This document shows, piece after piece, positions 19,738-20,173 of a stretch of DNA of 47,304 nt (its first letter is position 1; the number at the start of each line of letters is the position of its first letter). Both the position numbers and the translations under genes were made by a program. The stretch covers positions 1-47,304 of the forward strand of contig JAKEGK010000051.1 of NCBI GenBank assembly GCA_022627515.1, read 5' to 3'. This DNA is from Gammaproteobacteria bacterium. Lineage in GTDB: Bacteria; Pseudomonadota; Gammaproteobacteria; SZUA-152. Under the pieces are notes generated by a model that saw only the letters and a program-made list of their open reading frames with translations, searched no databases and had not been told where the DNA came from.

Positions 19738-19856
19738 TTTACGGTCACATATAACCATTGCTACTTTGCGTTTGATCCAGGACAAAACAGAGCCTGCGAT
19801 TAACGATTATAGTTTTCTCGCTTTGCTCCGTATGCGGTACAATAGCCGCAATTCCT

Positions 19857-19876
19857 AGCCCGCATTTCTCACCAGG
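19857..19876 (+). repeat. Left terminal inverted repeat of the 298-bp element
   Basis: AGCCCGCATTTCTCACCAGG, a perfect inverted copy of 20135-20154. The match stops at once on both sides. Confidence 0.85.
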
Positions 19877-19928
19877 ATCGCGGGAGCAGGCGCCGGATTC
19901 GCGTTCGTAGGCGCCCGCTCTAGAGCGA

Positions 19929-19952
19929 AAGTGGTAGCCGTAGCTACCACTT
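19929..19952. repeat. Central hairpin of the 298-bp element
   Basis: A perfect 10-bp stem AAGTGGTAGC / GCTACCACTT around a CGTA loop. It is flanked by the palindrome CGCTCTAGAGCG (19916-19927) and enclosed by the outer GCGGGAGC / GCTCCCGC pair. Confidence 0.7.
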
Positions 19953-20068
19953 GGCCGCTCCCGCACATCCTTGTGCTTCGCGGCATAAGTACTTCCTGTA
20001 CAAAAGTGAAGGGCAAGCATACGAACGCGAAGACAAGCCTGAACCGCGATAGGCCGGAGGATTAAACA

Positions 20069-20173
20069 GTGTGTAAAATGTTTAAATTGCAAAGCCGTTT
20101 GTTTATCAAACTAATCTTTTACTTTCTATGGCCGCCTGGTGAGAAATGCGGGCTTGAGGTTCATGAATCATGA
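20069..20173 (+). CDS. Possible 34-residue peptide ORF ending at the oxygenase start
   Basis: A GTG at 20069 lies 8 nt after a strong GGAGG (20056-20060) inside the repeat element. The frame encodes 34 residues with a hydrophobic aromatic centre (LFIKLIFYFLW), runs through the right terminal repeat, and stops at TGA 20171-20173, overlapping the oxygenase ATG as ATGA. The site and junction look like translational coupling. It is short and could be a chance frame or a remnant of a lost element gene. Confidence 0.3.
   Translation: MCKMFKLQSRLFIKLIFYFLWPPGEKCGLEVHES
20135..20154 (-). repeat. Right terminal inverted repeat of the 298-bp element
   Basis: The reverse complement of 19857-19876, without mismatch. 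It ends 15 bp before the oxygenase start codon. Confidence 0.85.

Follow-up and report, generated by a model that had tools for sequence, protein, structure and literature searches.

In the window analysed here, a stretch of 47,304 nucleotides of gammaproteobacterial DNA, a highly palindromic segment separates iscX from a 2OG-Fe(II) oxygenase gene, which raises the question of whether this segment is a mobile repeat, a structured RNA, or an element that combines the two.

Boundaries, copies and proposed partner of the element

The sequence-only reading had described a 298-bp element with perfect 20-bp terminal inverted repeats (TIRs), nested inner palindromes, no transposase gene and no target duplication. 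The arms at 19857-19876 and 20135-20154 do match over 20 of 20 bases in inverted orientation, but the TIR proper comprises 18 bp (CCCGCATTTCTCACCAGG, perfect at 18/18) and the element spans 294 bp (19859-20152). The repeat was shortened because it starts with CCCGC in all copies, and the outer AG/CT of the 20-bp match is half of a palindromic 4-bp target; across all copies the preceding 4 bp are CTAG, TTAA, CTAA or TTAG. Contrary to the earlier claim, a target duplication is present in degenerate form, the two flanks agreeing at three of four bases (Table 1). The inner palindromes were confirmed, the arms of helix 3 matching at 14 of 15 positions, and no transposase is encoded: the open reading frames listed for the element are mechanical and none is transposase-like.

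Table 1. Coordinates of the element, its core and its flanks in the window.
Feature	Position	Strand	Basis
Left target duplication copy, CTAG (YTAR target)	19855..19858	.	Sequence, flank comparison
Left TIR CCCGCATTTCTCACCAGG	19859..19876	+	Inverted match
Structured core (128 positions in covariance models R1/R2), here with 53-bp insertion	19875..20054	+	Covariance models, alignments
Helix 1, 5' arm, pairs with 20044-20050	19877..19883	+	Structure alignment
Helix 2, 5' arm, pairs with 20037-20041	19887..19891	+	A-U in one copy group, U-A in the other
Helix 3, 5' arm, 15 pairs, pairs with 20017-20031	19898..19912	+	Inner inverted match 14/15
Helix 4, 5' arm, pairs with 20010-20014	19917..19921	+	Structure alignment
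Apical hairpin AAGTGGTAGC CGTA GCTACCACTT	19929..19952	+	Compensatory changes among copies
53-bp inserted module	19953..20005	+	Shared with a few further copies; tandem array in a relative
Variable A+T-rich region before right end	20055..20134	+	Mean inter-copy identity 0.49 vs. 0.83 in the core
Right TIR (CCTGGTGAGAAATGCGGG on + strand)	20135..20152	-	Inverted match
Right target duplication copy, CTTG (one change from CTAG)	20153..20156	.	Flank comparison

Between iscX and the element there are 121 bp, and 17 bp after the element the oxygenase gene begins (ATG at 20170), in the same direction. The oxygenase gene itself (PF13640, 20170-20838) sits between iscX and ndk, a position in which it was not found in 17 relatives. 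None of 17 iscX-bearing relatives carried the core near iscX, and this absence led us to reject the idea that the site is conserved host DNA; neither the flanking intergenic DNA nor the oxygenase gene is conserved, and no exact empty site was alignable.

A search of the genome with the 298 bp recovered seven related copies (C20, C7, C68, C31, C201, C206 and an end fragment, C75), and the family of the window copy ranges from 241 to 367 bp in this genome. The 16-bp end pattern CCCGCATTTCTCACCA, with up to two mismatches, occurred 36 times vs. once for the reversed control. Among 25 distinct elements, the 4-bp flanks were identical in 15 and agreed at three or more of four positions in 23. Of the 19 elements flanked by YTAR at either end, 15 had the same 4 bp left and right, more than in shuffled pairs (p = 0.005), which distinguishes a duplication from an extended TIR; one element (L093) carries a non-palindromic CTAA/CTAA duplication. 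Copies at multiple unrelated places, both here and in other genomes, share these ends and show YTAR duplications of 4 bp, which upholds the earlier interpretation as a MITE, and the idea of unique conserved DNA clearly fails.

A second MITE family, B, has the same ends and is 176 bp long with CTAG on both sides (L044 531-706, L058 398-573, L059 1729-1904). Minimal elements of 50-53 bp with the same ends are flanked by CTAG on both sides as well (family B and minimal entries include L056 and L063).

IS1380-family insertion sequences (PF13701 / NF033539) resemble the MITE in TIR type (CCCGCATTTCTCACCA or CCCGSATATTTCA), YTAR target and 4-bp duplication; they differ in their length of about 1.7 kb, their transposase and the lack of a structured core, and no core was found inside IS1380 elements. 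Transposase-bearing elements with shared ends, which the earlier reading had suggested looking for, were found in two other genomes, where IS1380-family elements show this TIR type and are flanked by CTAG at either end. One of them (L097) is 1736 bp long with both ends present and one stop in its transposase. The other (L188, genome G181) is 1763 bp long, with near-identical 43-bp ends and an intact frame of 524 amino acids, for which IS1380 is the best NCBIfam family at 130.9 bits, below the curated cut-off of 180 bits and far above other families. Its subterminal CACTTCGTAGCGAGACGGTTCAA resembles the subterminal CCGTTCGTCGCGAGACGGTTCAA of family B, which therefore looks like a classical IS1380 derivative.

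The proposed partner in this genome, in contrast, appears only in truncated form. Five contigs (C36, C87, C176, C283 and C132; L052-L055, L057) end within about 100 bp inside a longer element with the identical 16-bp TIR, and three of these five ends share an IS1380-like leader; the assembly does not contain the transposase gene. TIR and leader (AAAAAGGCCGCC...AGGCGACCTTAT) are shared with the IS1380 locus L184, and the truncated element is probably a multicopy IS1380 that is missing from the bin. No PF13701 gene was found in this assembly, nor was a full-length insertion sequence of its own recovered from this genome's contigs, an absence to be expected if the repeated element had collapsed and escaped binning. 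Two near-complete genomes with 7 and 9 copies likewise yielded no IS1380 transposase above the cut-off; the IS1380 partner is therefore inferred, and some copies may be relics. Weak PF13701 matches in G144 and G263 were rejected as partners because their ends do not match. A scan of viral contigs gave one unpaired TIR match, the window element had no match in plasmid and phage collections, and a query with locus L164 matched those collections only over a flank of 60 bp, part of which carries ychF annotations. The assignment of the element as a MITE of IS1380 type is well supported.

Fold and distribution of the core

Folded as RNA, the whole 298 nt reached -146.3 kcal/mol (z = -9.1), which none of 200 shuffles equalled, and DNA parameters gave z = -10.2. 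A core of 128 positions adjoins the left end and folds as one long rod. Across 21 copies, mean identity was 0.92 for the TIRs and 0.83 for the left core vs. 0.49 for the right 75-80 bp.

In an alignment built without structure (A2), five helices with 42 pairs were formed in 94.6% of cells, compared with 30-38% when slid, and 9 of the 42 pairs had changed on both sides; the rearranged copy G7C66 was left out of the structure alignment. The arms of the apical hairpin, for example, read GTGGTAGC/GCTACCAC, GTCATAGC/GCTATGAC or GCCATAGC/GCTATGGC, depending on the copy. Among distant copies from the same class, RNAalifold predicted 40 pairs, of which 37 had changed on both sides. The later alignments (A3-A5) were fitted to the covariance model, and in 54 sequences so aligned 37 of 42 pairs had changed on both sides, and none of 500 shuffles reached the observed score; 92.2% of cells were paired vs. 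76.3% in shuffled and 30-38% in slid alignments. Covariation of this kind supports conserved helices, as expected of a structured RNA. The loop sequence GAGCGA/GAGUGA suggests that tandem G-A pairs may form.

The covariance model located the core in 22 of 278 relatives, representing 18 families of the class, often in several copies (5 to 12 in several genomes), and a second model located it in six genomes from one family of another class of the same phylum, so that the core pairing spreads over at least 19 bacterial families. All 25 new loci tested, from 20 genomes, had TIRs matching at 13-16 of 16 positions in the same geometry and were 246-280 bp long; control positions reached 13 in 1 of 97 cases. 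TIRs were present at both ends in 9/9 loci of the other class and in 34/34 outside copies tested overall. The TIR sequence differs by genome (CCCGCATATTGCACCA, CCCGGATATTTCATGG, CCCGGAAGTTGTATGA and others), whereas the core keeps its length, its unpaired motifs and its position beside one TIR over the 19 families. The core thus outlives its ends, unlike a simple deletion derivative of one insertion sequence. These results support well a long-lived and widespread MITE superfamily, apparently uncatalogued, with a conserved strand-specific fold.

Explanations for the fold and comparison with known repeats

Of the two strands, the one that reads from the left TIR into the core gives the better fold in 38 of 39 copies and in 24 of 24 genomes, and when representative copies were considered with the other class added, the preference held in 33/33 under RNA parameters and 32/33 under DNA parameters. 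G-U cells numbered 60, compared with 16 A-C cells. In our reading, one strand carries the functional fold, as RNA or as single-stranded DNA. On this strand only the 16-18-bp TIR precedes the core, which leaves no room for an internal promoter, and a search revealed no promoter-like site. The copies have no consistent sense orientation to neighbouring genes, the neighbours being unrelated and in every orientation.

We consider it very probable that the element is an IS1380-mobilised MITE whose one-strand core fold has been selected for the persistence of the element. In this model, an IS1380-family transposase would excise the MITE at its TIRs in trans, a route for which support is good, and the excised MITE would be pasted into YTAR sites with a 4-bp duplication. 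The fold, which may be selected for the element's own persistence, most likely would act as RNA (a candidate on the + strand) when host transcription crosses the element, and this RNA might form a rod that is stable and open to processing, much like NEMIS/Correia transcripts; the main alternative to RNA would be a hairpin in single-stranded DNA. The earlier proposal of a structured RNA, if transcribed, has gained from the covariation, with folding at the DNA level still standing beside it. More tentatively, the core could be a module that functions as a nucleic acid, either RNA or single-stranded DNA, and is needed for the element's own spread, and the family a long-lived IS1380 "satellite" lineage that keeps one fold while its ends track each host's IS1380, in at least two classes of one phylum; we regard this extension as possible rather than probable.

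First among the competing explanations, the selected form might be single-stranded DNA, one strand folding during replication or transfer and aiding excision or target choice. The strong fold under DNA parameters, with nearly the same strand preference, and the lack of orientation with host genes are consistent with it; one pair, however, is most often G-U (21 of 54), other pairs tolerate G-U well too, as RNA does, and transposition of the IS1380 type would be expected to use ends in double-stranded form. We consider this form unlikely, if still a serious candidate. Second, MITEs are usually regarded as deletion derivatives that stem from one insertion sequence and are short-lived, and the element might be such an ordinary derivative, its inner palindromes incidental and its compensatory changes produced by replication template switching between arms instead of selection on the fold. 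Palindromic DNA does get corrected between its arms, many copies are degenerate, and cassettes are gained and lost. Conservation of the core, however, greatly exceeds that of the 80 bp next to it and extends over 19 families, and correction from arm to arm, which treats both strands alike, would not be expected to produce the strand preference or the excess of G-U; these observations render an ordinary deletion derivative improbable. Third, a structured RNA or regulator recruited by the host at the iscX/oxygenase locus, for example as a leader of the oxygenase gene, would fit the position of the element directly before a start codon in the same direction, but it is very improbable, given the unrelated neighbours of other copies in all orientations, the relatives without the element after iscX, and the TIRs and target duplications that bound it. 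Last, a MITE of another YTAR-targeting family such as IS5, which also duplicates YTAR (PMC10359306), or IS701 is hardly credible, although the L188 transposase weakly matches IS1634 and IS701 models, because IS1380 is the best-matching family for the proteins of elements that carry precisely these ends, and PF13546 (IS701) is absent from this genome.

Rfam 15 gave no credible match to the window element at E <= 1, the one match (E 0.83, to a microRNA family) being due to chance, and none in nine other loci at E <= 0.1. The element is similar to BOX of Streptococcus pneumoniae, a modular interspersed repeat with a stable structure and interchangeable inner modules. BOX is a repeat family (PMC3049150), from which the element differs in host group, ends and modules. 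NEMIS/Correia elements, the MITEs of Neisseria, are likewise short and TIR-bounded, their whole transcript is foldable, and TIR pairing closes the structure (PMC2229807, PMC10969869); in those papers they are restricted to Neisseria, have other ends and are shown to be processed by RNase III. Folded MITE transcripts have thus been described for NEMIS/Correia, with RNase III cleavage, and for the QMITEs of Coxiella (PMC10969869, PMC2229807, PMC5896051). A 2024 RNA survey lists 250 mobile or repeat candidates, of which MRSC-65-2 is the only one described in its main text (PMC11109978). MRSC-65-2 resembles the element in having a long stem with covariation, numerous copies in a genome, no consistent orientation and suspected mobility, and differs in its UYCCGG repeats, with no IS1380-type TIRs described for it (PMC11109978); identity of the element with one of the survey's other 249 candidates is possible (PMC11109978). 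A search of the open literature found no published MITE of IS1380 type whose fold is conserved across many families.

It is unusual for a MITE that the interior is conserved far beyond genome and genus by compensatory changes on one strand, while the ends bound by the transposase vary. This makes it testable whether an element without a transposase carries a selected RNA or DNA structure that aids its persistence. In addition, the covariance model would allow copies to be annotated across many genomes and candidate small RNAs to be marked.

Modules and composite copies

Several copies contain further repeated sequences. A cassette of about 80 bp with three hairpins (GGGTGAGCGGCGG..., CGGCCAGGG..., CTTCATCGTGAGGC...) occupies the first third of the C20, C201 and C206 copies (L002, L006, L011), directly before helix 3, and such hairpin cassettes seem to be exchanged between copies. 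The 53-bp module of the window copy is also found inside the C20, C68 and G7C108 copies, and minimal copies are without it; outside the MITE, the same module forms a tandem array with a 53-bp period in the relative G004 (L145 480-808) and occurs singly in G010 and G022. Head-to-tail pairs of the MITE with the central 4-bp target in common were observed at two loci of another MAG, L087 98-583 and L089 77-436, and look as if one copy had inserted into the target duplication of another. Furthermore, a 160-bp inverted-repeat element with CCCGCATGTCTCACCAGG ends is nested in a MITE copy (L091 930-1089), and one such end lies in L087 near 2372.
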